Assembly (NCBI RefSeq): GCF_011682235.2
Contig: NZ_CP076718.1
Coordinates: 3,954,400 to 4,018,399, forward strand
Source: Rhodocaloribacter litoris
GTDB taxonomy: Bacteria > Bacteroidota > Rhodothermia > Rhodothermales > ISCAR-4553
Direction of reading: 5' to 3'
DNA length: 64,000 nucleotides
The notes below the pieces were generated by a model. It was given only the letters and a program-made list of their open reading frames with translations, ran no database searches and was not told the DNA's origin. Below, piece after piece: positions 34,675 through 53,465 of this stretch (positions are counted from its first letter, which is position 1; each line of letters starts with the position of its first letter). A program made the position numbers and the translations under genes.

Positions 34675-36306
34675 ATGACGCAGCAGGAAACGGCGGGGCA
34701 TGGTATCCGCAGGACGGCACAACCCTCGGATCCGGGCGAAGACGGAGGCCTGCACCCCGTTCGGGTGTGTGTCATCGACCTGGGAACGAACTCGTTCCAC
34801 ACAGTCATCGTCGACGCGTACCCGAACGGGGCCTTCAAGGTGATCGACCGGCTCAAGGACATGGTGCGCCTGGGCGAGGGAGGGCTGGTGGCGCATCGCC
34901 TCACCGGGGAAGCCATGGAACGGGGGGTGCAGGCGCTCCGGCGCATCCGCCTGCTGGCCGAAGGGTGGGGGGTGAGCGAGTATCTGGCCTACGCGACGAG
35001 CGCCATCCGGGAGGCCGAGAACGGCGGCGACTTCATCGCGCGTGTGCAGGCGGAGGTGGGCCTGCACATTCGCCCGATCAGCGGCAACCTGGAGGCCACG
35101 CTCATCTACAAAGGCGTCCGTCGCGCCGTCTCGATGCCGGAGCCGGCCCTGCTGGTCGACATCGGCGGGGGATCGACCGAGTTCATCGTGGGCACGAGCC
35201 GGAAGTTGCACTACGCCGCGAGCCTCAAGCTCGGAGCGGCCCGCATGACGGAACGGTTTCTTCACACCGACCCGGTCGAGAAGCAGGAGTTCAGGGCGTT
35301 GCGGGCCTATTACCGGGAGCAACTGGCGCCCGTCTACGCGGCGGTGCGGGCGCACGGTGCCCGCGAGATCGTCGGATCTTCGGGCACGATGGAAAACCTG
35401 GCGCAGGTCTACCTCCATCTCCAGGGCCTTTCCGGGGCGTCACCGTTTCACGAGGTCTTCGATCCGAAGGCGTTTCGCCAGGTCACGAAGAAGATCATGC
35501 GTTCGACGCGGGCGGAGCGGGCCGCGATGCCGGGCATCGACGAGAAGCGGATCGACCAGATCGTTGCCGGGGCGATGCTCGTCGATGTGTTGCTGAAGGA
35601 CCTGGAGGTCGAGCGGCTACGCCTTTCTCCGAACGCCCTGCGGGAGGGGATGGTGGTCCATTTCATCGAGCAGAACAGCAAGCGCCTGCGCCGCCTGGCC
35701 CCGTTCACCGACGTGCGGCGGCGGAGCGTCTACGAGCTGGGTTTCCGGTTCCGGTGGGAGCAGGAGCATGCGCGCCACGTGGCGGCGCTGGCCCTCGAGC
35801 TGTTCGATGTCTGCCACCCGCTGCATGGGCTGGACGAAGACGCCCGCGAGCTGCTCGAATACGCTGCGCTGCTGCACGACGTCGGCTACCACATCAGCCA
35901 CCGGCGTCATCACAAGCACACCTGTTATCTGATCCGGCATGCCGACCTGCGCGGTTTTCAGCCCGAGGAGGTGGCCGTCATCGCGTGTGTGGCCCGGTAT
36001 CACCGGCGGGCGTTCCCGAAGAAGTCGCACCGGGTGTTCGGGAAGCTCTCGAAGGAGCACCGGCGGCTGGTGCGGCAGCTCGCGGCCCTGCTGCGCCTGG
36101 CCGAGGGGCTCGACCGCAGCCACTTCCAGAACGTGACGCGCCTCGACGCCCGGCTGTTGGACGAGGCGCTGCACCTGCGGCTCGAAACGAAGGCCGATCC
36201 GGAACTCGAGGTCTGGGGGGCCCGGCATGCCGCCGATCTGTTCGAGGCCACGTTCGGGCGGGGGATCGAGGTGACGGCCGCCCGCCTGCCGGAGACGGGG
36301 CCGTAG
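34675..36306 (+). CDS. Ppx/GppA family phosphatase
   Basis: A 543-residue protein of the ASKHA-fold exopolyphosphatase family. It has the P-loop-like start VCVIDLGTNSFHTVIVD, the second phosphate motif LLVDIGGGSTEFIVG and the EATLIYKGV segment. The C-terminal half is an HD-like domain (LLEYAALLHDVGYHIS with HD), as in long Ppx/GppA proteins. The enzyme hydrolyses inorganic polyphosphate and/or pppGpp, linking it to the stringent response. ATG 34675 is used; GTG 34633 would add 14 residues. It is the gene directly before the complex I operon. Confidence 0.9.
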   Translation: MTQQETAGHGIRRTAQPSDPGEDGGLHPVRVCVIDLGTNSFHTVIVDAYPNGAFKVIDRLKDMVRLGEGGLVAHRLTGEAMERGVQALRRIRLLAEGWGVSEYLAYATSAIREAENGGDFIARVQAEVGLHIRPISGNLEATLIYKGVRRAVSMPEPALLVDIGGGSTEFIVGTSRKLHYAASLKLGAARMTERFLHTDPVEKQEFRALRAYYREQLAPVYAAVRAHGAREIVGSSGTMENLAQVYLHLQGLSGASPFHEVFDPKAFRQVTKKIMRSTRAERAAMPGIDEKRIDQIVAGAMLVDVLLKDLEVERLRLSPNALREGMVVHFIEQNSKRLRRLAPFTDVRRRSVYELGFRFRWEQEHARHVAALALELFDVCHPLHGLDEDARELLEYAALLHDVGYHISHRRHHKHTCYLIRHADLRGFQPEEVAVIACVARYHRRAFPKKSHRVFGKLSKEHRRLVRQLAALLRLAEGLDRSHFQNVTRLDARLLDEALHLRLETKADPELEVWGARHAADLFEATFGRGIEVTAARLPETGP

Positions 36307-36349
36307 GGTGGGGGCGGGCGACGTTTCCGCGTCTTTACCGGATCTTTTC

Positions 36350-36379
36350 TTGCCGATGCGGTGCGGGTTGGCTAATTTG
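36350..36379 (+). promoter_or_regulatory. Promoter candidate for the nuoJKLM-nhaD-pcd-nuoN operon
   Basis: TTGCCG (36350-36355), a 17-bp spacer and TAATTTG (36373-36379), resembling the Bacteroidota downstream box. It would start transcription near 36386, about 100 nt before nuoJ. Confidence 0.55.
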
Positions 36380-36485
36380 CGCGCCGTGCGCTTTCCGGCG
36401 ACGTAAGCGGCTGGCCGGACGCGTAGGCGCCTGCAGCCGCCCCGGGTGTGCGCCGTGCCCCCGCCATCTGACCACCACCCCTTCC

Positions 36486-36995
36486 ATGATCGCGCAATTT
36501 CTCTTTTTTCTGCTGGCGATCGTAGCCGTGACGGCGGCACTGGGTATGCTGCTGTCGCGCAACCCGGTCACGAGCGCGCTGTGGCTGATTCTGAACCTGT
36601 TCTGCATCGCCGGGCTGTACCTGACGCTGCACGCGCAGTTCATCGCCGTGATCCAGGTGCTGGTCTATGCCGGTGCGATCATGGTGCTGTTTCTGTTCGT
36701 GATCATGCTGCTCAACCTGGCGGCGCTGCCGGCCTTCCGCCAGGTGGACCTGCGGCGGGGGGTGGCCTTCGTGCTGGTGATGGGGGTGCTGGCCGAGCTG
36801 GCCTACATCACGGCGATGGCGGCCGGTGTCCTGCCCGAGCCGGTTCCGCCCGAGCAGGCGGCACAGACGGGCTACGCCGCGGAGATCGCCAAGGAGCTCT
36901 TTACGCGCTATGCCCTCCCGTTCGAGATGGTGGGGGTGCTGTTGCTGGCGGCCACCATCGGCGCGGTGATGTTCGCCAAGCGTCGTTTCGTCTGA
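36486..36995 (+). CDS. nuoJ: NADH-quinone oxidoreductase subunit J
   Basis: A 169-residue membrane subunit (Nqo10) of respiratory complex I with five hydrophobic segments. Family marks are the early TAALGMLLSRNPVTSALWLI and the transmembrane-3 segment YAGAIMVLFLFVIMLLN with its pi-bulge region. It lies in the membrane arm between the quinone module and the antiporter subunits. It is the first gene of this partial complex I operon; nuoA-nuoI are not in the window. Confidence 0.94.
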   Translation: MIAQFLFFLLAIVAVTAALGMLLSRNPVTSALWLILNLFCIAGLYLTLHAQFIAVIQVLVYAGAIMVLFLFVIMLLNLAALPAFRQVDLRRGVAFVLVMGVLAELAYITAMAAGVLPEPVPPEQAAQTGYAAEIAKELFTRYALPFEMVGVLLLAATIGAVMFAKRRFV

Positions 36996-37049
36996 CGCCC
37001 GGCCGCCCGCGGGGCCGGTGTCGAACCCGAAACCGAAGTCCTTCTCCCA

Positions 37050-37349
37050 ATGGATATTTCCTGGTATCTGGCGCTGAGTGCGGTGCTCTTTACCATCGGG
37101 GTGCTGGGGGTGCTGCTGCGCCGCAACGCCATCATCATCCTGATGTCGGTGGAGCTGATGCTCAACGCCGTCAACCTGACGCTGGTGGCCTTCAGCCAGG
37201 CGCTGGGGGACGTGGCCGGGCAGGTGCTCGTGTTCTTCGCCATCTCGGTGGCTGCGGCCGAGGCGGCCATCGGGCTGGCCATCGTGATTGCCATCTTCCG
37301 CGGCAAGCTGACCGTGGACGTGACCCAGATCAACCTGTTCAAGTATTAA
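37050..37349 (+). CDS. nuoK: NADH-quinone oxidoreductase subunit K
   Basis: A 99-residue subunit (Nqo11) with three transmembrane helices. The two conserved glutamates of the proton path are present, one in [11 protein letters not shown] and one in [11 protein letters not shown]. It is related to the MrpC/MnhC antiporter subunits. It begins 54 bp after nuoJ and precedes nuoL, the usual order. Confidence 0.95.
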
Positions 37350-37404
37350 CGAACGGCTTCCGGTGGCCGGTTGTCCGCCGGTCGCCGGCCCGTCTCCCGC
37401 CTTT

Positions 37405-39390
37405 ATGGAACCAGACCTGCTTGTACGGCTGATCCTGCTCCTGCCGCTGGCGGGCGCCGTCTTCAACGGGGTGCTGCCGCTTTTCATGCCCGGCCTGCGG
37501 CGACGGGAAACCCTCCTCGGGAGCGTCGGGACGGCCGTGGTGGCCCTCCCCTTCGTGCTGGCCGTCTATCTCTTCGTCACCTACGGCGGCGAGCCGGTCG
37601 TGACCACGTTCTTCACCTGGATGGCCGCCGGGGATCTGAGCGTCTCGTTCGCCTACCGTATCGACGAGCTCTCGCTCCTGATGACGCTCATCGTCACCGG
37701 CGTCGGGGGGCTCATCCATCTCTATTCCATCGGCTACATGCACGGTGACCCCGGGTTCTGGCGCTTCTTCGCGTACCTGAACCTGTTCATTTTCATGATG
37801 CTCAACCTGGTGCTGGGGGACAACCTGCCGGTGCTGTTCCTCGGCTGGGAGGGCGTCGGGCTGTGTTCCTACCTGCTGATCGGGTTCTGGTACACCGACC
37901 TGAAGAACAGTGCCGCCGCCAACAAGGCGTTCATCATGAACCGGGTGGGGGACTTCGCCTTCCTGCTGGCGATGTTCATCCTCTTTCGCGAGCTGGGCAG
38001 CCTGGACTTCGACGTGATCCTGTCGGAAGGGCCGGGCATGTCGCAGGCGGCGGTCAACTGGGTCGTCCTGTTGCTGTTCTTCGGGGCCACGGGCAAGAGC
38101 GCGCAGATCCCGCTCTACACGTGGTTGCCGGACGCCATGGCCGGTCCGACGCCCGTCTCGGCCCTCATCCATGCCGCCACGATGGTCACGAGCGGGCTCT
38201 ACCTGCTGGCCCGCCTGTCGCCGCTGGTGCTCTCCGCGCCGGGGATCATGGCGCTCGTGGCCGTCATCGGGGCGACGACGGCGCTCGTGGCGGCGACGAT
38301 CGCCATCACGCAGAACGACATCAAGAAGGTGCTGGCCTATTCGACGGTCTCGCAGCTCGGCTACATGTTTCTGGCCTCGGGCGTGGGGGCCTTCTTCGTG
38401 GCGATCTTTCACGTGATGACGCATGCGTTCTTCAAGGGCTGCCTGTTCCTGGGGTCCGGCAGCGTCATTCACGCGATGCACCATGTGGAGCATGAGGTGG
38501 CGCACCACGGCAAGGGGCACCTGGACCCGCAGGACATGCGCACGATGGGCGGGTTGAAGCGGTACATGCCGACGACGCGCCTGACGTTTCTGCTTTCGAC
38601 GCTGGCCATCGCCGGGATTCCGCTCTTCTCGGGTTTCTTCTCGAAAGACGAGATCCTGTTCAAGGCGTTCGAATACGGCTACGACGGGCACGCCTATGCC
38701 TGGTTCGCCTGGGGCGTGGGCGTTTTGACGGCGTTCCTGACGGCCGTCTACATGACGCGCTGCTACGTGCTGACCTTCGAGGGCCGGCCGCGCTGGCCCC
38801 TGGCGGAGACGGTGCACCCGCACGAGTCGCCCTGGATGATGACGGTGCCCCTGTGGGTGCTGGGCTTCCTGTCCGTGGTGGGGGGCTTTCTGGGGTTGCC
38901 CGGTGTGATCGCACACGGCGAGTTGAACTGGATCCACCACTGGCTGGCGGGCGAGCACGGTCCGGTCGCCGAAGCCGCGGTGCACGGGCATGTCCCCCTG
39001 GCGCTCGAGTGGGGGCTCATCGGCCTCGGTGCGCTGATCGCCCTGGTCGGGGTGGGGCTGGCCTGGCAGTGGTACGCGCAGCACGGGCTGGCCTTCGACG
39101 CCCGCCTGAAAGAGCGTTTCGGCCGGCTCTACCGGTGGGCCGCGGAACTGTACCACGTGGACGACTTCTACCGGGCCACGTTCGTCCGCCTGGTCATCGG
39201 CGGGGCGGAGAAAGGGCTGGCGCCGTTCGACCAGCGGGTCGTCGACGGGCTCGTCAACGGCGTGGCCCGTATGACGCGCGGCCTCGGCCTGGCCCTGCGC
39301 TACCTCCAGACCGGCCTCGTGCAGGCCTATGCCGTGGCCGTCGTGCTCGGGGTGGTGCTCATCATCGCCCTGATGCTCTTTGGTTCCTAG
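37405..39390 (+). CDS. nuoL: NADH-quinone oxidoreductase subunit L
   Basis: A 661-residue proton-pumping subunit (Nqo12), the most distal of the membrane arm. The key antiporter-type motif includes the segment EGVGLCSYLLIGFWY, the conserved lysine region PTPVSALIHAATMV, and the TM12-type stretch AYSTVSQLGYM. The C-terminal extension (about 500-661) forms the long lateral helix typical of NuoL. ATG 37405 is used; the longer frame adds 14 residues that fall in the intergenic gap. It is about 55 bp after nuoK. Confidence 0.95.
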   Translation: MEPDLLVRLILLLPLAGAVFNGVLPLFMPGLRRRETLLGSVGTAVVALPFVLAVYLFVTYGGEPVVTTFFTWMAAGDLSVSFAYRIDELSLLMTLIVTGVGGLIHLYSIGYMHGDPGFWRFFAYLNLFIFMMLNLVLGDNLPVLFLGWEGVGLCSYLLIGFWYTDLKNSAAANKAFIMNRVGDFAFLLAMFILFRELGSLDFDVILSEGPGMSQAAVNWVVLLLFFGATGKSAQIPLYTWLPDAMAGPTPVSALIHAATMVTSGLYLLARLSPLVLSAPGIMALVAVIGATTALVAATIAITQNDIKKVLAYSTVSQLGYMFLASGVGAFFVAIFHVMTHAFFKGCLFLGSGSVIHAMHHVEHEVAHHGKGHLDPQDMRTMGGLKRYMPTTRLTFLLSTLAIAGIPLFSGFFSKDEILFKAFEYGYDGHAYAWFAWGVGVLTAFLTAVYMTRCYVLTFEGRPRWPLAETVHPHESPWMMTVPLWVLGFLSVVGGFLGLPGVIAHGELNWIHHWLAGEHGPVAEAAVHGHVPLALEWGLIGLGALIALVGVGLAWQWYAQHGLAFDARLKERFGRLYRWAAELYHVDDFYRATFVRLVIGGAEKGLAPFDQRVVDGLVNGVARMTRGLGLALRYLQTGLVQAYAVAVVLGVVLIIALMLFGS

Positions 39391-39411
39391 CGAAGTGGAG
39401 CAAACCCTGAT

Positions 39412-41025
39412 ATGCCCTTAACCTCGATCGTCATCTTTCTGCCCCTGGTGGGGGCCCTGGTGATCCTGGCGCTGCGGCAGGCCGGCGCGATCCGGTGGGC
39501 GGCCCTTCTGACCACGGTGGTCACGTTTCTCGTGTCGCTGGGGCTGTGGGCGGGCTTCGACCCGTCGGTCACCACGGCGCAGCTCGTCGACCAGTCCGCC
39601 GCCTGGTTCCCCGAGCGCTTCGACGTGAAATACTTCGTCGGCGTCGACGGGCTGAGCCTGCTGCTGGTGCTGCTGACGACGCTGCTCGGTCCTATCGTGG
39701 TACTCTCGTCCTGGACCTACATCGAGAAGTACCAGAAGGGCTATTACATCCTCCTGCTCATCCTCCAGACGGGCATCACGGGTGTCTTCACCGCCTACGA
39801 CGTCATCCTCTTCTACATCTTCTTCGAGCTGACGCTCATTCCGATGTATTTCATCATCGGCATCTGGGGCGGGGAGGACCGGATCTATGCGGCCGTCAAG
39901 TTTGTGCTCTACACGATGGTCGGCTCGCTGCTGATGCTCGTGGCGATCCTGTACCTGGGCTATCAGGCCGGGCAGGCCGTCAATGGCGGCGTCTTCACCA
40001 CCGACTGGTACAAGCTGCTCGAATACAACGTGCCGCTGGCCGACCAGACCTGGCTCTTCTTCCTCTTTGCCTTCTCGTTTGCCATCAAGGTGCCGCTTTT
40101 CCCGCTGCACACGTGGTTGCCGGATGCGCACGTGCAGGCGCCCACGGGCGGCTCGGTGATCCTGGCCGGTGTGCTGCTGAAGATGGGGACCTACGGGCTG
40201 GTGCGCTTCTGCCTGCCCTTCTTTCCGAATGCGGCCCGGGAGTATGCGATGCTCTTTGCCGTGCTGGCCGTCATCGGGATCGTCTACGGCGCGATGGTCT
40301 CGCGGGCCCAGCCGGATGCCAAGAAGCTCGTCGCCTACTCGTCGGTGAGCCACCTGGGCTTTGTGGTGCTGGGCCTTTTCGCTTTCACCGTCGAGGCCAT
40401 GCAGGGCGCCATGATCCAGATGATCAACCACGGCCTCTCCACGGGCGCGCTCTTCCTGATCGTCGGCATGCTCTACGAGCGCCGGCACACCCGGCTGATG
40501 GCCGACTTCGGCGGCATCGCCCGGACGGTGCCCGTGCTCTCGTTCTTCATGATCCTGACGGTGCTGGCCTCGGCCGGCCTGCCCGGCCTGAACGGCTTCG
40601 TGGGCGAGTTCATGATCCTGGCCGGGTCGTTCAAGAGCACCGTCGTTGGCCGCCCGCTGCTGATCGCGCTGGCGACGACCGGCGTCATCCTGGCGGCGGT
40701 CTACCTGCTGTGGATGGTCTACCGGACGTTCTGGGGGCCGATTACGCAGGAGGCCAACCGGACCATGAAGGACCTGAACGCCCGCGAGGTGGCCCTGCTC
40801 GTGCCGCTGGCGGTGCTCATGGTGGTGCTCGGCCTGGCGCCGACCCCCTTCCTGAAGACGAGCGAACCGGCCACGCGCTTCCTGCTGGAGACCATCGAAC
40901 AGAAGCGCCTGGCCGCACAGCAGGCCGATCCCGGCGTGCCCGTGCTGGCGGACCGCCTCCGCGACGCGGACCGTCCCGCCGAAGTCGAAGCGCCCGGCCC
41001 CGGCCCGGTCCCCCCTCGAGACTGA
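39412..41025 (+). CDS. nuoM: NADH-quinone oxidoreductase subunit M
   Basis: A 537-residue proton-pumping membrane subunit (Nqo13), homologous to NuoL and Mrp antiporters. The conserved pump residues sit in FFELTLIPMYFIIG (Glu), the LHTWLPDAHVQAPTGGSVILAG block and the KKLVAYSSVSHLGFV helix. A Pro/Glu-rich tail of about 30 residues follows the last helix. It is the last subunit before the two inserted genes nhaD and pcd. Confidence 0.95.
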   Translation: MPLTSIVIFLPLVGALVILALRQAGAIRWAALLTTVVTFLVSLGLWAGFDPSVTTAQLVDQSAAWFPERFDVKYFVGVDGLSLLLVLLTTLLGPIVVLSSWTYIEKYQKGYYILLLILQTGITGVFTAYDVILFYIFFELTLIPMYFIIGIWGGEDRIYAAVKFVLYTMVGSLLMLVAILYLGYQAGQAVNGGVFTTDWYKLLEYNVPLADQTWLFFLFAFSFAIKVPLFPLHTWLPDAHVQAPTGGSVILAGVLLKMGTYGLVRFCLPFFPNAAREYAMLFAVLAVIGIVYGAMVSRAQPDAKKLVAYSSVSHLGFVVLGLFAFTVEAMQGAMIQMINHGLSTGALFLIVGMLYERRHTRLMADFGGIARTVPVLSFFMILTVLASAGLPGLNGFVGEFMILAGSFKSTVVGRPLLIALATTGVILAAVYLLWMVYRTFWGPITQEANRTMKDLNAREVALLVPLAVLMVVLGLAPTPFLKTSEPATRFLLETIEQKRLAAQQADPGVPVLADRLRDADRPAEVEAPGPGPVPPRD

Positions 41026-41056
41026 CCTTCCTGATCACCGGCTCTCTGACGATCGC

Positions 41057-42649
41057 ATGAAGACATCGTTGTTGCTCGTCCGTCTGGCCCGGTCCCTGGG
41101 GCGGGCCGGGGTACTGCTTCTCCTGATGCTGGCCTGGTCGGGCCCGTACGATGCACGGGCACAGGAAGCCGTACCGGAGACGCCCGTCGTCGCGGACACG
41201 GTGCAGGATGGAGCCGTGGCGCGTCCGGAGGCGCCCGCGGCGGAGCCGGCCCAGGAGGCCGGGGCGGCGGTGCAGGAGGCGGAAGCACACGGCGAGCACG
41301 CCTCGCCGCCGGTGTGGCTGGTGCTGCCGTTCGTGGCCATCCTGCTCATGATCGCCACCGGGCCGCTCTTCTACCCGCATCACTGGCATCATCACTATCC
41401 GAAGTATGCCGTCGGGCTGGGGCTCGTCGTCGTCTTCTACTACATCTTCGGGATGGGCACCGTGGTGCCCGTGCAGCACGCGCTCGACGAATACCTTTCG
41501 TTCATCGCGCTGGTGGCCTCGCTCTTCATCGCGGCCAGCGGCATCTTCGTGAGCATCAACGCGAAGGGGACGCCGCGCAACAACATCATCCTGCTCTTCG
41601 GGGCCTCGGTCATCGCCAACCTGATCGCCACGACCGGCTCGGCGATGCTGTTCATCCGCTCCTACATGCGGCTGAACAAAGGGCGGCTGAAGGCCTACCA
41701 CATCATCTTCTTCATCTTCCTCGTGGCCAACGTGGGGGGGGCGCTGACCCCCATCGGCGACCCGCCGCTGTTTCTCGGCTTCCTGCGCGGGGTGCCCTTC
41801 TTCTGGACGCTCACGCACGTCTGGTACATCTGGCTGCCGACGACCATCCTGATCCTGGCCGTCTTCTACGTCTTCGACAAACGGAACAAGCTGGAGAGCC
41901 CCGATCCGGAGCCGGGCAAGCCCATCCTCAGCCTGCAGGGGACGAAAAGCTTCTTCTGGGTGCTTTTGATCATCCTGCTCGTCTTCGTCGATCCCAACGT
42001 CTTCCCCTGGGTGCCGAGCCCGAAGAACCTGCACCTGCCCTTCGGCTTCCACCTGCCGCTGGGGATCCGGGAGATCGGGATGTTCCTGGTGGCGTTTCTG
42101 GCCTACAAGACGGCCGACCGGGAGGCGCTGGCAAAGAACGAGTTCAACTTTGAGCCCATCCGGGAGGTGGGCTGGCTGTTCCTGGGCATCTTCGCCACGA
42201 TGCAGCCGGCCCTGGAGCTCATCAGCGAGTTTGCCCAACACCACGCCGAGGACCTGACCGTCGGCATGTTCTACTGGGGAACCGGCATGCTGTCCGGCAT
42301 CCTGGACAACGCGCCGACGTACCTCAACTTCGTGGCCGCCGCGATGGGCAAGTTCGGCCTCGACGTGAACCTGCCGGCCCACGTGAAGGATTTCGCCCTG
42401 CCGGAGATGGCCCACCCGGATTCGTGGCACTTCCTGCAGGCGATCTCGGTGGCGGCGGTCTTCTTCGGGGCAATGAGCTATATCGGGAACGCGCCCAACT
42501 TCATGGTGAAGGCCATTGCCGAGGCGAACGGGGTCGAGACGCCCTCGTTCATGGGCTACATCGTCCGGTACTCGATCCCGATCCTGATCCCGATCTATTT
42601 CGTCATCTACGTCATCTTCTACAGCGGGTGGGTGCTGAGCATCAACTGA
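41057..42649 (+). CDS. nhaD: NhaD-type Na+/H+ antiporter inserted in the complex I operon
   Basis: A 530-residue transporter of the NhaD/ion-transporter superfamily. About eleven hydrophobic helices follow a signal-like segment and an 80-residue Ala/Glu/Pro-rich lead. The family core is clear: a conserved NVGGALTPIGDPPLFLGFLRG block in the first half, and GILDNAPTYLNFVAAAMG plus FFGAMSYIGNAPNFMVKAIAE in the second. NhaD exports sodium in exchange for protons. The gene sits between nuoM and nuoN, as reported for Rhodothermus marinus. Cotranscription with a proton pump suggests a link between the proton gradient and sodium homeostasis in a salt-loving thermophile. Confidence 0.93.
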   Translation: MKTSLLLVRLARSLGRAGVLLLLMLAWSGPYDARAQEAVPETPVVADTVQDGAVARPEAPAAEPAQEAGAAVQEAEAHGEHASPPVWLVLPFVAILLMIATGPLFYPHHWHHHYPKYAVGLGLVVVFYYIFGMGTVVPVQHALDEYLSFIALVASLFIAASGIFVSINAKGTPRNNIILLFGASVIANLIATTGSAMLFIRSYMRLNKGRLKAYHIIFFIFLVANVGGALTPIGDPPLFLGFLRGVPFFWTLTHVWYIWLPTTILILAVFYVFDKRNKLESPDPEPGKPILSLQGTKSFFWVLLIILLVFVDPNVFPWVPSPKNLHLPFGFHLPLGIREIGMFLVAFLAYKTADREALAKNEFNFEPIREVGWLFLGIFATMQPALELISEFAQHHAEDLTVGMFYWGTGMLSGILDNAPTYLNFVAAAMGKFGLDVNLPAHVKDFALPEMAHPDSWHFLQAISVAAVFFGAMSYIGNAPNFMVKAIAEANGVETPSFMGYIVRYSIPILIPIYFVIYVIFYSGWVLSIN

Positions 42650-42662
42650 TCCGGAGACAGCC

Positions 42663-42953
42663 ATGGCGGAACCCCTGCGTCCGAGCGAGATCGAAGCCGC
42701 CCTGCAAGACCTGCCGGGGTGGCGCTACGAGGCAGACCGGCTGACGAAGACGTTCATTTTCTCCAGTTTTCGCGAAGCCGTCGGTTTCATTGTGCGCCTG
42801 GCCTTCGAGGCCGAGGCGCTGAACCACCACCCGGAGCTGACGAACGTCTACAACCGCGTCACACTGGCGCTTACGACCCACGACGCGGGCAACCGGGTCA
42901 CGGTGCGCGATGTGCGCCTGGCCCGGGCCATCGAAGCTTTCAACTGGACCTGA
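42663..42953 (+). CDS. Pterin-4a-carbinolamine dehydratase-like protein (PCD)
   Basis: A 96-residue PCD/DCoH family protein. The catalytic pattern is present: a pair of histidines in EALNHHPEL followed by VYNRV, and a later THDAG. These are the residues that dehydrate carbinolamine after aromatic amino-acid hydroxylation; other PCD-family members act in molybdopterin metabolism or as accessory proteins. No hydroxylase gene is near. The gene lies between nhaD and nuoN, as in Rhodothermus marinus, and its reason for being inside the complex I operon is unknown. Confidence 0.9.
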   Translation: MAEPLRPSEIEAALQDLPGWRYEADRLTKTFIFSSFREAVGFIVRLAFEAEALNHHPELTNVYNRVTLALTTHDAGNRVTVRDVRLARAIEAFNWT

Positions 42954-42963
42954 CTGCGATTGT

Positions 42964-44469
42964 ATGGAGCTTGCACAGGCATACGACGCCCTGCCGGCCG
43001 ATCTGGTACGGACGCTCCCGCTGGTACTGATCGTGCTGGCCGGGCTGGCGGCGGTCGTCATCGATGCGTTCCGGAACAACCATGCCTCGATTCCGTGGCT
43101 GAGCGTCGCCGCGCTGGTCGTGGGGATCGTGTGGGAGGCGGCGGGCCTCCGGGCGCCGGCCGGAACGGCCTACTTCGACCTGATCCGCGTCGGTGGTTTC
43201 GCCTCGTTCGTCAACATCGTGGTGATGGGAGCCGGGGTGCTGACGATCCTCCTCTCGGTGTCCTATCTGGAGCGCATCCGTCACCATCACGGGGAAGTCT
43301 ATGCCCTGCTGCTCTTTGCCACGGCCGGCATGATGCTGCTCGGCGCGGCGAACAACCTGATCGCCGTCTTCGTCGGGCTGGAGACGATGTCGGTGTGCCT
43401 GTACATTCTGACCGGGCTGGTCCGTGAGGATGCCGGGGCCATCGAGGGCGCCCTCAAGTATTTCCTGCTGGGGGCTTTCGCCACCGGCTTCTTTCTCTAC
43501 GGCATCGCTCTGCTCTATGGCGCCACCGGGACGATGTACCTGCCGGCGATGCGGGAAGGGCTGGCCGCCGGCGGGGAGGCGCTTGGAGCCAGCCGCGAGG
43601 TGCTCTTCTGGGCCGGCGTGGCGATGCTGCTGATCGGCTTCCTGTTCAAGGTCAGCGCCGTGCCGTTCCACATGTGGACGCCCGATGCCTACCAGGGCGC
43701 CCCGACGACGCTCACCGGCTACATGTCCACGGCGTCGAAGGCGGCGGCGTTCGCCTCGCTCATCCTGGTGCTCTACTTCGCCCTGCCCGGCGAGCGGTGG
43801 AGCCTGGTGCTGGCCATCGTGGCCCTCATCACGATGGTGCTGGGCAACGTGCTGGCGCTGGCGCAGGCCAACGTCAAGCGGATGCTGGCCTACTCGTCCA
43901 TCGCCCACGCCGGGTACGTGCTGGTCGGGCTGGCCGCCGGCTCGACGGCCGGCTACAGCGGGGCGCTTTTCTACCTGCTCGTCTACACCGTGATGAACAT
44001 CGGTGCCTTCGGGGTCATGGCCCTGCTCGAATGGGACGGCAAGGTGGGGCGGGAGCAGACGCTCGACTCGCTCGCGGGCGTGGGTTTCCGCCGTCCCCTG
44101 CTGGGCGTGACGATGGGCTTTTTCATGTTCAGCCTCACCGGTTTTCCGCCGCTGGGGGGCTTCCTCGGCAAGTACGCCGTCTTCGCGCCGGCCGTCGAGG
44201 CGGGGCTGACGTGGCTGGTGGTCGTCGGCGTGCTGGCCAGCGCCGCTTCGGGATACTATTACCTGCGGGTGCTCTACGTCTTCTGGATGAAGTCGCCGGA
44301 CGAGGAGCCGGAGCCGGTGCGCCGGGCTGCGTTCCCCGTTCCCCGCGTGGCGGCGGCCGTGCTGGTCGCCTGCGCCGTGCTGCTGGTCCTCCTCGGCGTC
44401 ACCCCGGCTCTGCTCGACCTGACGGGCGCCTTTTTCGAAGGCACCCGTGCCATGGCCGGGTTGCCGTGA
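42964..44469 (+). CDS. nuoN: NADH-quinone oxidoreductase subunit N
   Basis: A 501-residue membrane subunit (Nqo14), the third antiporter-like pump of complex I. The helix-lysine pattern in FKVSAVPFHMWTPDAYQGAPT and the segment VKRMLAYSSIAHAGYVLVGL are diagnostic. ATG 42964 is chosen, starting MELAQAYDALPADL; the longer frame overlaps pcd. It closes the operon; the stop codon is followed within 6 bp by a heptamer repeat array. Confidence 0.94.
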   Translation: MELAQAYDALPADLVRTLPLVLIVLAGLAAVVIDAFRNNHASIPWLSVAALVVGIVWEAAGLRAPAGTAYFDLIRVGGFASFVNIVVMGAGVLTILLSVSYLERIRHHHGEVYALLLFATAGMMLLGAANNLIAVFVGLETMSVCLYILTGLVREDAGAIEGALKYFLLGAFATGFFLYGIALLYGATGTMYLPAMREGLAAGGEALGASREVLFWAGVAMLLIGFLFKVSAVPFHMWTPDAYQGAPTTLTGYMSTASKAAAFASLILVLYFALPGERWSLVLAIVALITMVLGNVLALAQANVKRMLAYSSIAHAGYVLVGLAAGSTAGYSGALFYLLVYTVMNIGAFGVMALLEWDGKVGREQTLDSLAGVGFRRPLLGVTMGFFMFSLTGFPPLGGFLGKYAVFAPAVEAGLTWLVVVGVLASAASGYYYLRVLYVFWMKSPDEEPEPVRRAAFPVPRVAAAVLVACAVLLVLLGVTPALLDLTGAFFEGTRAMAGLP

Positions 44470-44474
44470 AGGGG

Positions 44475-44539
44475 CGTTGAACGTTGAGCGTTGAACGTTG
44501 AACGTTAAACGTTGAACGTGTAACGTGTAACGTTCAACG
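44475..44539. repeat. Heptamer tandem repeat after nuoN
   Basis: Nine 7-bp units starting CGTTGAA: CGTTGAA, CGTTGAG, CGTTGAA, CGTTGAA, CGTTAAA, CGTTGAA, CGTGTAA, CGTGTAA, CGTTCAA, then CG. It spans most of the 94-bp gap between nuoN and the next gene. The unit matches the array in the sufC-sufD gap. Confidence 0.85.
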
Positions 44540-44563
44540 CGCACCACACACCGCCTCACCGGC

Positions 44564-45148
44564 ATGGAAACGCTGCTGCTCGACCTGATTCCGCATGCCC
44601 CGCAGATGGGGTTGTACGTGCGGCCGCACATCCCGGCGGATAAGCTCCGCAACGCCCTCCGGGATTATGCGGAGACGATCCAGGCCGGGGACGTGCTGGC
44701 CCTCTACGACGCCACGCTGATGGGCAGCGCCCGCGACGGCGCCGTCTTCACCGCCGACCGCTTCGTCTTCCAGAACAACAACCTCGAACCGCCCCAGGAA
44801 GTCCGCTATGCCGATCTGGTGCGCGTCGTCACCACGAAGAAGTTCCTCGGCGGGCGGAAAGTCGAGATCGACGTGAACCGGGGACGGGCCACGGTGACAC
44901 TGACGATCGATTTCTCGGGCAAGCCCGAGGCGGCCGAATACGTGGCCCGCTTCCTGAACGAGGCCATGCTCCACGGTGCCATGGAGGAGATGGAAGGGCG
45001 TGCCCGCGAAACGGAACGGGTGTTTCCGCGGCCCGGCATCCGGACGGATCTCGAGGCCGTCCGCGCCGCACTCGACGAACTGCACGAACAGGAACTGCTC
45101 TCGGCCGAGGACTGGCACAAACTCCGCCGGTGTATCGGGCTCGAATGA
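44564..45148 (+). CDS. Conserved hypothetical protein, PH-like domain
   Basis: A 194-residue protein I cannot name. Residues about 30-135 read like a small pleckstrin-homology-type barrel: GDVLALYDATLMGSARDGAVFTADRFVFQNNN, then a strand RKVEIDVN and ATVTLTIDFSG. This is followed by a helix (PEAAEYVARFLNEAM) and a polar C-terminal helical tail. Bacterial PH-like domains often bind lipids or proteins at the membrane. It stands between the complex I operon with its heptamer tail and sodA, both on the same strand, and no function is assigned. Confidence 0.7.
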   Translation: METLLLDLIPHAPQMGLYVRPHIPADKLRNALRDYAETIQAGDVLALYDATLMGSARDGAVFTADRFVFQNNNLEPPQEVRYADLVRVVTTKKFLGGRKVEIDVNRGRATVTLTIDFSGKPEAAEYVARFLNEAMLHGAMEEMEGRARETERVFPRPGIRTDLEAVRAALDELHEQELLSAEDWHKLRRCIGLE

Positions 45149-45186
45149 GCGGCAACGACACAGATTCGTGAAAACATCCCGCCCGT

Positions 45187-45225
45187 TGATCCGTTGAAAA
45201 AAGCGAAACCCATCGCAACGGATCA
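45187..45225. repeat. Perfect inverted repeat in the sodA leader
   Basis: Ten-base arms TGATCCGTTG (45187-45196) and CAACGGATCA (45216-45225) flank a 19-nt loop. The repeat ends about 10 nt before the Shine-Dalgarno stretch TGGAGGA (45234-45240) of sodA. It could be an RNA hairpin or an operator for a redox or metal regulator. Confidence 0.6.
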
Positions 45226-45243
45226 CTCAAAACTGGAGGAACC

Positions 45244-45873
45244 ATGGCACATACACTTCCCCCCCTGCCGTATCCCTACGATGCGCTCGAACCGCACATC
45301 GACGCGCGCACGATGGAGATCCACCATACGAAGCACCATCAGGGCTACGTGAACAACCTCAACAAGGCGCTCGAAGGGCACGCGGACCTGCAGGCCAAGA
45401 GCATCGAGGACCTGCTCCGTGGGATCGATCAGGTGCCCGAGCGCATCCGCACGGCCGTGCGGAACAACGGCGGCGGCCACGCCAACCACAGCCTGTTCTG
45501 GACCATCATGTCGCCCGACGGGGGCGGCACCCCGGGCGGCAGCCTGGCCGAGGCCATCAACGAGACCTTCGGCTCCTTCGACGCCTTCAAGGAGAAGTTC
45601 GCGGCCGAGGCCGCCGGGCGCTTCGGCAGCGGCTGGGCCTGGCTCGTCGTCGACGAGGACGGCAAGCTGCGTCTCTACAGCACCGCCAACCAGGACAGCC
45701 CCTACATGCAGGGCCACACGCCCATCCTGGGGCTGGACGTGTGGGAGCATGCCTACTACCTGCACTACCAGAACCGTCGCCCCGACTACATCAACGCCTG
45801 GTGGAACGTGGTGAACTGGGCGCAGGTCGCCAAAAATTACGAGGCCGCCCGCAGCGCCGTCGTCGCCGGCTGA
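45244..45873 (+). CDS. sodA: Superoxide dismutase, Mn-type
   Basis: A 209-residue cytosolic superoxide dismutase. The four metal ligands are His27, His82, Asp165 and His169 ([11 protein letters not shown]). Gln150 in ANQDSP, in the position that marks manganese enzymes, and the GGGHANHS loop point to manganese rather than iron. No signal peptide is present. A GGAGG ribosome site precedes the ATG by 4 nt, preceded by a 10-bp inverted repeat. A strong terminator follows. Confidence 0.94.
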
Positions 45874-50999: not shown

Positions 51000-53465
51000 C
51001 TATTGCCGGAGCTCGGCTCCGTGTTCCGCCGTCAGCCGCTCCAGGATCGTGTTCATGCAGGCATCGACCTCCTCGTCGGTGAGGGTGCGGTCGGCGCCGA
51101 AGCGCAGGGCGAAGGCCACACTTTTCTTGCCCTCGGGGATACCCGGACCGGCATACAGGTCGAAGACGGTGGCCTGCTGCAGCAGCGGGCGCCCGGCCTG
51201 GCGGATCGTTTCGAGCAGGAGGCCGGCCGGCCGGTCGCGCTCGACGAGGACGGCCAGGTCACGCTCTACGACGGGAAAGCGGCTGATCTCCGCGTAGCGT
51301 TCCTGCAGGAACGGCGCCGCCCGCTCGACGAGCGCCTGCCAGTTCAACTCCGCCACGAACACGGGTTCCTTCAGGTCGTACGTTTCGGTGAGCGCATCGG
51401 CCAGGCGGGCAAGGTAGCCCAGGTGGACGTTGCCGCTGTGGACGGTGAGGCGGTAGGCCGTCAGCGGTCCCGGCGTGTGGTCGGGCGTCATGGTCACGTC
51501 CGGCACGCGCAGGATCTCCAGCAGGGCCTCGACGTCCCCTTTGAGGTCGAAGAAGTCGGCCGGGCGGGGCGGTTCGTCCCACCGGATACCCGTGCGGGGG
51601 CCGCTGAGGGCGAGGAGGAACGTCTCGTGTTCGGCATAGCCGGGCACGTAGGAGCCGTCGTCCGAGCGGAAGTAGACGTGGCCGAACTCCATGAAGCGGA
51701 GGACGTGTTGCCCGTGGTTCCGGTTGTGCGCCATCACCTGGAGCAGGCCGGGCAGGAGGGTGGGGCGGAGCGCCGCCATCTCCTGTGAGATCGGGTTGAG
51801 CGTCTCGACGAGGCCCTTCACGCCGGAGAACCCGAGCAGGGCCGGCGCGAAGAAACGTTCGGCCGTCTCGCGCCGCATCATCGAGTTCGTATAGACCTCC
51901 CGGTAGCCCAGGCTGCTCAGGAGGGCCAGCGTGCGTCGCCGGAGCGTGTGGGCCGGCGCCTCGCGCGGGGTGAAGACAGGGAGGGCGGAATGGGTCGGTT
52001 CGGGGATCCGGTCGAAGCCGTAGAGGCGGCCCACCTCTTCGATGACGTCGATTTCGCGCTCCACGTCCGGCCGGAACGAAGGGACGCGGCACGCGAGCAC
52101 GCCCGGCGTTTCCTCGGCCGGTTCGAAGCCGATGGCCGTGAGCAGGCGCTGCACCGTTTCGCCGGGGATGCTCACCCCGAGGATGCGGGCGAGGCGGTGC
52201 AGGCGAAGCCGGACCGTGCGACGCGGCACCGGCCGGGGATGGACGTCCACCAGGCCGGGAACGACCTCGCCCCCGCCGAGCGCGGCCATGAGGTGGGCCG
52301 CCCGGGCAGCGGCCCAGACCTGCCCCTCGGGGTCCACGCCCCGCTCGAACCGGTAGGAGGCGTCGGTGGCGAGCTGCAGGGCCTTCGCCGTGCGCCGGAT
52401 GGTCGCGGGGTCGAAGTAGGCGCTTTCGATCAGGACGTTCGTCGTCGCCTCACCGACTTCCGAGTTCTGCCCGCCCATCACCCCGGCGATGGCGACGTCC
52501 CGCTCGGCGTCGGCGATCATGAGCGTGCCGGCCGGCAGGTGCCGCGTTTTGTCGTCCAGCGTGACGAAGGGTTGCTCCTGCCGGGTGAAGCGCACGATGA
52601 TCCGTTGCCCGGCGATCCGGTCGAAGTCGAACGCATGCAGCGGCTGGCCGCATTCGTACATCACGTAGTTGGTGATGTCCACGATGTTGTTGCGCGGGCG
52701 CAGGCCGACGGCTTCGAGCCGGCGCCGGAGCCAGGCGGGGGACTCCCGCACGGTGACGCCGCGTACGAGCATCGCCACGTACCGGCCGCACCCCTCCGGC
52801 GCCTCGATCGTGACGTGGACGTGCCGGGCCGCCTCGCCGCCGGGCTCGGGCAGGGGCACCTCTGGGCGCCGAAGCGGGGCGCCGACGAGTGCCGCCACGT
52901 CCCGCGCCACGCCCAGATGGCTGACCGCGTCGGGGCGGTTGGGGGTGACGGCCACATCCAGGACGACGTCGCGGGCCGCCCGGCCCCGGGCTTCCAGGTA
53001 TTCTGCAAAAGGCTGACCGGCCGGGGCGTCCTCGTCCAGCACCATGATGCCGCTGTGGTCGTCGGAGAGGCCGAGCTCGTCTTCGGCGCAGATCATCCCC
53101 ATCGACACCGCCCCCCGGATCTTGGCCTGCTCGATCTTGAACGTCTTGCCGGGGTGCTTCGGGTGGGGCAGGACCGCGCCGGGGGTGGCCACGGGCACCT
53201 TCTGCCCGGCGGCCACGTTGGGTGCCCCGCAGACGATCTGTACGGTCACACCGTCGCCCAGGTCGACCCGGCAGAGGGTCAGCCGGTCGGCGTTCGGGTG
53301 GGAGGCCACCTCGAGTACGTGCCCGACGACCACGCCGTCGAACGCGGGGCCGGTGGCCTCCACGGCCTCCACCTCGAGCCCGGCCATCGTCAGCCGGTCG
53401 GCAAGTGCCTCGGGGGACAGGCCGTGGTCTACGTAGTCCTTGAGCCAGGAATAGCTGATTTTCAT
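51000..53465 (-). CDS. pheT: Phenylalanyl-tRNA synthetase beta subunit
   Basis: An 821-residue beta subunit of the alpha2-beta2 enzyme that charges tRNA-Phe. The domain order is standard: a tRNA-binding domain (about 40-150, with HPNADRLTLCRVDLG), B3/B4 editing domain, B5 domain, a synthetase core-like domain, and an anticodon-binding ferredoxin-like domain at the end (about 725-821). It begins about 55 bp after pheS and is probably controlled with it by the leader attenuator at 54591-54732. Confidence 0.96.
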   Translation of the reverse strand: MKISYSWLKDYVDHGLSPEALADRLTMAGLEVEAVEATGPAFDGVVVGHVLEVASHPNADRLTLCRVDLGDGVTVQIVCGAPNVAAGQKVPVATPGAVLPHPKHPGKTFKIEQAKIRGAVSMGMICAEDELGLSDDHSGIMVLDEDAPAGQPFAEYLEARGRAARDVVLDVAVTPNRPDAVSHLGVARDVAALVGAPLRRPEVPLPEPGGEAARHVHVTIEAPEGCGRYVAMLVRGVTVRESPAWLRRRLEAVGLRPRNNIVDITNYVMYECGQPLHAFDFDRIAGQRIIVRFTRQEQPFVTLDDKTRHLPAGTLMIADAERDVAIAGVMGGQNSEVGEATTNVLIESAYFDPATIRRTAKALQLATDASYRFERGVDPEGQVWAAARAAHLMAALGGGEVVPGLVDVHPRPVPRRTVRLRLHRLARILGVSIPGETVQRLLTAIGFEPAEETPGVLACRVPSFRPDVEREIDVIEEVGRLYGFDRIPEPTHSALPVFTPREAPAHTLRRRTLALLSSLGYREVYTNSMMRRETAERFFAPALLGFSGVKGLVETLNPISQEMAALRPTLLPGLLQVMAHNRNHGQHVLRFMEFGHVYFRSDDGSYVPGYAEHETFLLALSGPRTGIRWDEPPRPADFFDLKGDVEALLEILRVPDVTMTPDHTPGPLTAYRLTVHSGNVHLGYLARLADALTETYDLKEPVFVAELNWQALVERAAPFLQERYAEISRFPVVERDLAVLVERDRPAGLLLETIRQAGRPLLQQATVFDLYAGPGIPEGKKSVAFALRFGADRTLTDEEVDACMNTILERLTAEHGAELRQ

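Follow-up and report, generated by a model that had tools for sequence, protein, structure and literature searches.

The locus analyzed here raises the question of why genes for a Na+/H+ antiporter and a pterin-4a-carbinolamine dehydratase (PCD) should be located between nuoM and nuoN of a respiratory complex I operon. The window, i.e., the whole 64,000-nt stretch of DNA that was analyzed, comprises bases 3954400-4018399 of the 4.50 Mb single-contig genome of Rhodocaloribacter litoris.

Layout of the locus and the Rhodothermus marinus precedent

Examination of open reading frames with Pfam and NCBIfam profiles revealed the gene order nuoJ-K-L-M-antiporter-pcd-nuoN on the plus strand (Table 1), in which the complex I membrane-arm genes nuoJ, K, L, M and N lie on one strand in canonical order. 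The two additional genes were found exactly where the initial annotation had placed them. The spacing of 13 and 10 bp that it gave is right for the antiporter/pcd and pcd/nuoN gaps, and the gap between nuoM and the antiporter gene is 31 bp. These short same-strand gaps support a predicted membrane-arm (nqo10-14) operon, and the operon-like layout proposed earlier recurs in nearly all relatives, where the genes are also tightly spaced on the same strand. The genes of the nqoB operon in Rhodothermus marinus are reportedly cotranscribed. The NuoD gene is located at 327836-328999 on the opposite strand, far from the nuo genes of the window; thus, the hydrophilic-arm genes are separate from the nuoJ-N cluster. 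No sigma-70-like site was detected in 36300-45400 (a promoter type that may not apply to this host), Rfam gave no match within 30-50 kb of the window, and Mrp antiporter genes were absent from the examined window region. A tRNA-Pro called by ARAGORN at 53321-53393 lies inside the 5' part of a same-strand pheT-like ORF and is probably a false positive.

Table 1. Genes of the complex I locus, numbered from the first base of the window
Feature	Position	Strand	Evidence
nuoJ (nqo10)	36486..36995	+	PF00499, 132.6 bits
nuoK (nqo11)	37050..37349	+	PF00420; NCBIfam NuoK
nuoL (nqo12)	37405..39390	+	TIGR01974, 685.6 bits
nuoM (nqo13)	39412..41025	+	TIGR01972, 602.7 bits
Predicted NhaE-type Na+/H+ antiporter ("nhaD" in the initial annotation), 530 aa	41057..42649	+	PF16980, 440.3 bits; NCBIfam, none; slot shared with Rhodothermus and most of the order
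pcd, pterin-4a-carbinolamine dehydratase, 96 aa	42663..42953	+	PF01329, 100.6 bits; sole copy in the genome; catalytic motif
nuoN (nqo14)	42964..44469	+	TIGR01770, 406.5 bits
Gene X, 194 aa, PH-like domain and C-terminal helices	44564..45148	+	No Pfam match at E 0.001; homologues in relatives; structure model

The precedent in R. marinus that the initial annotation mentioned is real. A complex I operon with nhaD and pcd homologues is attributed to Melo et al. (2005, BBA 1709:95-103, doi 10.1016/j.bbabio.2005.06.003), as cited in PMC8063116, and this was confirmed via the reference list. That operon, nqoB, consists of nqo10-14 plus the two homologues, identical in genes and order to the window, although it belongs to another genus and family. 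In the genome taken as R. marinus (G037, locus L042), the antiporter, PCD and NuoN are 77%, 75% and 71% identical to their counterparts in the window, respectively. The arrangement is already published for R. marinus; here it occurs in a new genus, and the name given to the antiporter is corrected.

Identity and turnover of the antiporter

The initial annotation had labeled the antiporter as NhaD-type, a name that the profile searches do not bear out. The protein scores 440 bits against the Pfam profile PF16980, and it matches neither of the NhaD models (TIGR00775 and NF038006) nor any other NCBIfam model even at E=10. As a positive control, the true NhaD of a relative (L069) reached 369 bits on TIGR00775 and exceeded the cut-off of NF038006; the window protein and this NhaD are 25% identical. 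The R. marinus antiporter was itself later refiled as the founder of the NhaE family (TC 2.A.111) rather than a member of NhaD, and it confers resistance to Na+ but not Li+ and is active at pH 6.5-7.5 (review PMC9408914). As far as can be told, this founder is the product of the same locus. The window gene occupies the same slot as the gene of the presumed R. marinus genome, with the high identity given above, which makes it an ortholog, and the protein falls within a single NhaE clade (tree support 99). Thus, the antiporter is predicted to be NhaE (PF16980) and not NhaD. NhaE (R. marinus, Neisseria meningitidis) and NhaD (TC 2.A.62; Vibrio, Halomonas) both belong to the IT superfamily.

The comparison covered about 245 genomes of the class plus others, with genera sampled by hand and many drafts incomplete. 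Searches for PF16980, PCD, NuoN and NuoM covered 114 genomes of the order, and about 58 loci were examined. PCD was found in 106 of the 114 genomes and a PF16980 antiporter above the cut-off in 78. Wherever both extra genes and complex I were present in the examined loci, the order was nuoM-nhaE-pcd-nuoN, and the three successive gaps had medians of 18, 6.5 and 14 bp; NhaE occupies the gap between nuoM and pcd across most of the order. Since the same order is found across dozens of genomes, it is not due to chance. The conservation expected for this lineage holds for most relatives, with three kinds of exception: a family (f12) without the antiporter, one genus with a different antiporter, and lineages that have lost complex I but retain at least one of the two extra genes. 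The initial annotation had named variation of the gene order among close relatives as evidence against its reading; such variation was indeed found and argues in part against a rigid functional unit.

In family f12, the order is nuoM-pcd-nuoN, with the antiporter missing from its slot and complex I intact. As f12 is nested within the order on the NuoL+M+N tree, the antiporter was most likely lost in this family. Downstream of nuoN, at a distance of about 2.2 kb, one f12 genome has an MrpA-type gene (L219:15087-17501). In genus g47, the slot of three genomes (G101, G103 and G104) holds a 464-aa true NhaD, 3 bp after nuoM, which scores 369 bits on TIGR00775 and exceeds the cut-off of NF038006, and a congener (G100) retains NhaE there. 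The NhaD-bearing genomes are nested among NhaE-bearing ones on the complex I tree; judging from these sequences, NhaE of g47 is replaced in place by a member of another antiporter family. In the two genomes of family f7 that were examined, NhaE is present and is followed by a homologue of gene X and then a superoxide dismutase gene. No NuoD, NuoM or NuoN was found in f7, and its PCDs, located elsewhere, share only 40-44% identity with that of the window. Thus, NhaE presumably also works without complex I, and f12, having complex I and pcd without the slot antiporter, indicates that the antiporter link is not obligatory. Family f14 (L071:5763-6194 and L072:5579-5911) has a divergent complex I (NuoM about 38% identical) and lacks NhaE; its NhaD is encoded separately, and its pcd is not located near the nuo genes. 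An apparent nuoM-nhaE fusion in L028 and L034 was discarded: the tblastn alignment ran through a stop codon, and the open-frame lengths correspond to separate genes.

The sister order of the class likewise keeps nuoM-pcd-nuoN. Some of its genomes have an antisense NhaE between nuoK and nuoL (G144, G148 and G222), and others have an antisense Mrp-type cluster in that position (G139, G179, G189 and G193, e.g., L211:5395-9392; subunit families were checked in G139). Although the Mrp antiporters are multi-subunit systems on the other strand and at another position than the window antiporter, they apparently fill the same role at the locus. In four further sister-order genomes (G145, G149, G154 and G196), NuoD is absent and pcd and NhaE are adjacent, head to head; free-standing copies of NhaE without complex I are found in genera g54, g56, g59 and g68 of this order. 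In a sample of 16 Bacteroidota from outside the class, pcd was never located near nuo genes, and its insertion between nuoM and nuoN is therefore a mark of the class.

With the window antiporter as query, 19 Ignavibacteria-type loci were identified in which NhaE is located next to nuoM, nuoN or both and pcd is absent. In 18 of these, NhaE is directly followed by a gene for an uncharacterised protein of about 121 aa (e.g., L151:7333-7695), which is placed between nhaE and nuoN and also follows NhaE in six further loci without nuo genes nearby. Its structure model is confident and beta-rich (pLDDT 87), with no Pfam family and no fold match in PDB. The possibility that it is a diverged PCD was rejected, as profile comparison revealed no relation, in line with the Pfam and PDB results. 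Among about 45 NhaE genes of Cytophagales, none has a nuo gene within 6 kb. Taken together, the antiporter slot has apparently been occupied, reoccupied and vacated several times among these relatives, and the pattern in which antiporters were placed and exchanged at complex I loci goes beyond the published account that we found.

A dehydratase without phenylalanine hydroxylase

The PCD of the window matches positions 2-90 of the 91 positions of PF01329, i.e., the whole domain of the PCD/DCoH family (PF01329, COG2154), and is close to solved structures of DCoH2 and bacterial PCD. Its motif, E-x3-H-H-P-x5-Y-x9-H-x9-D, is intact (E51, H55, H56, P57, Y63, H73 and D83). The initial annotation had observed that no gene for phenylalanine hydroxylase (PAH) is nearby, and this extends to the whole genome, in which no aromatic amino acid hydroxylase (PF00351) was found. 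A role in recycling for PAH was therefore rejected for this PCD, and a partnership with PAH is not required of all members of the family. The window PCD also differs from the family in that its gene is embedded among complex I genes.

PAH was detected in 74 of the 114 genomes of the order and is absent from family f3 and Rhodothermus (f10), as it is from the window genome. Nearly all genomes of the class have pcd, regardless of whether PAH or complex I is present. The catalytic motif is kept in all sampled families, with one E-to-Q exception, and is intact in each of the 12 sequences that represent PAH-less families. Moreover, the dN/dS values of pcd in two PAH-less pairs (0.04 and 0.10) are similar to those of nuoN. 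The intact motif and the low dN/dS without PAH argue that pcd has a selected catalytic job independent of PAH, that is, that its product is a predicted working enzyme under purifying selection. As pcd is also retained in genomes that have lost complex I, a role solely as a complex I factor is unlikely. A role in molybdenum cofactor metabolism has been proposed for the PCD family (PMC3223725).

Proposed roles of the two genes at the complex I locus

The explanation that we consider moderately probable is that the antiporter is a stand-alone sodium partner of a menaquinone-type complex I, and that PCD is a housekeeping dehydratase fixed in the operon. It combines our observations on gene order, families, conservation, replacements, losses and the catalytic motif with the NhaE activity and complex I behavior described in papers on R. 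marinus. Complex I of R. marinus reduces menaquinone, and Na+/H+ antiport has been postulated for it, with Na+ influx lowering the barrier to H+ efflux (PMC5662883; PMC4607728), although this antiport activity is controversial (PMC5662883). From these data, we infer how NhaE would be coupled to complex I and what PCD would do. The genes for an NhaE-type antiporter and a catalytically intact PCD would have been inserted into the operon of a menaquinone-type complex I, between nuoM and nuoN. The antiporter would be a separate membrane protein produced together with complex I. Complex I would pump H+ out and let Na+ in, and NhaE would use the H+ gradient to drive Na+ back out, keeping sodium balanced at high respiration. 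PCD would be a soluble dehydratase for 4a-hydroxy-tetrahydropterins that became fixed in the operon in the ancestor of the class; it would not be a subunit of complex I, and it would be independent of PAH. The in-place replacement of one antiporter by another argues for a functional link, and the loss in f12 together with the free-standing survival in f7 indicates a partner rather than an obligatory subunit. These patterns suggest that sodium export goes with this complex I, although the sharing of an operon may merely serve expression level.

A less probable alternative is that both genes are passengers, which entered a strong, constitutively expressed respiratory operon and remained there since exit is difficult, with no functional tie to complex I. 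The near-universal pcd, retained with or without PAH and complex I, is consistent with a frozen position, and the survival of NhaE after loss of complex I and its location away from nuo genes in Cytophagales also agree with this alternative. However, passengers would not be expected to be swapped in place for another Na+/H+ antiporter, nor would three kinds of antiporter (NhaE, NhaD and Mrp) be expected at the complex I loci of separate lineages; this distribution fits the return of Na+ better than a pure passenger account.

A function of PCD in the biogenesis of complex I, as a DCoH-like protein or a chaperone and not as a pterin enzyme, is rather improbable. Throughout the class its gene is fixed between nuoM and nuoN, and it is retained without PAH, which would agree with such a function, but its catalytic residues are all kept, pcd remains in the sister-order genomes without NuoD, and the Ignavibacteria complex I operon does without it. 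Finally, it is highly improbable that the antiporter belongs to complex I as a genuine accessory subunit, bound beside NuoM/NuoN and forming an extra ion channel in the membrane arm, as its gene position between those of two antiporter-like subunits and its repeated association with complex I loci might indicate, given the free-standing copies in f7 and four sister-order genera, the replacement by an only 25%-identical protein of another family, the loss in f12 with complex I intact, and the lack of any real nuoM-nhaE fusion.

Movement of Na+ in addition to H+ by complex I in low-potential (menaquinone) chains is a matter of debate, on which the repeated placement of non-homologous Na+/H+ antiporters would be independent evidence, pointing to suitable organisms and gene pairs. 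We extend this only tentatively to the proposal that complex I loci of menaquinone-type Bacteroidota relatives are a recurring home for Na+/H+ antiporters, with NhaE, NhaD and Mrp placed or exchanged independently in the nuoM-nuoN and nuoK-nuoL slots and the 121-aa Ignavibacteria family as a dedicated partner of NhaE. If this is true, the pattern would indicate on genetic grounds that Na+ is imported by these complexes I and that a dedicated exporter is needed. As for PCD, its strong purifying selection without PAH would mark an unknown pterin reaction in a whole bacterial class.

Downstream of nuoN, homologues of gene X in relatives show 43-58% identity; this PH-like gene was not found in the Rhodothermus loci examined, which differ from the window in this respect. 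Its structure model (pLDDT 84) has PH domains as the best PDB folds. A superoxide dismutase gene is also located downstream in the window, and in family f7 gene X remains next to nhaE with the nuo genes gone.
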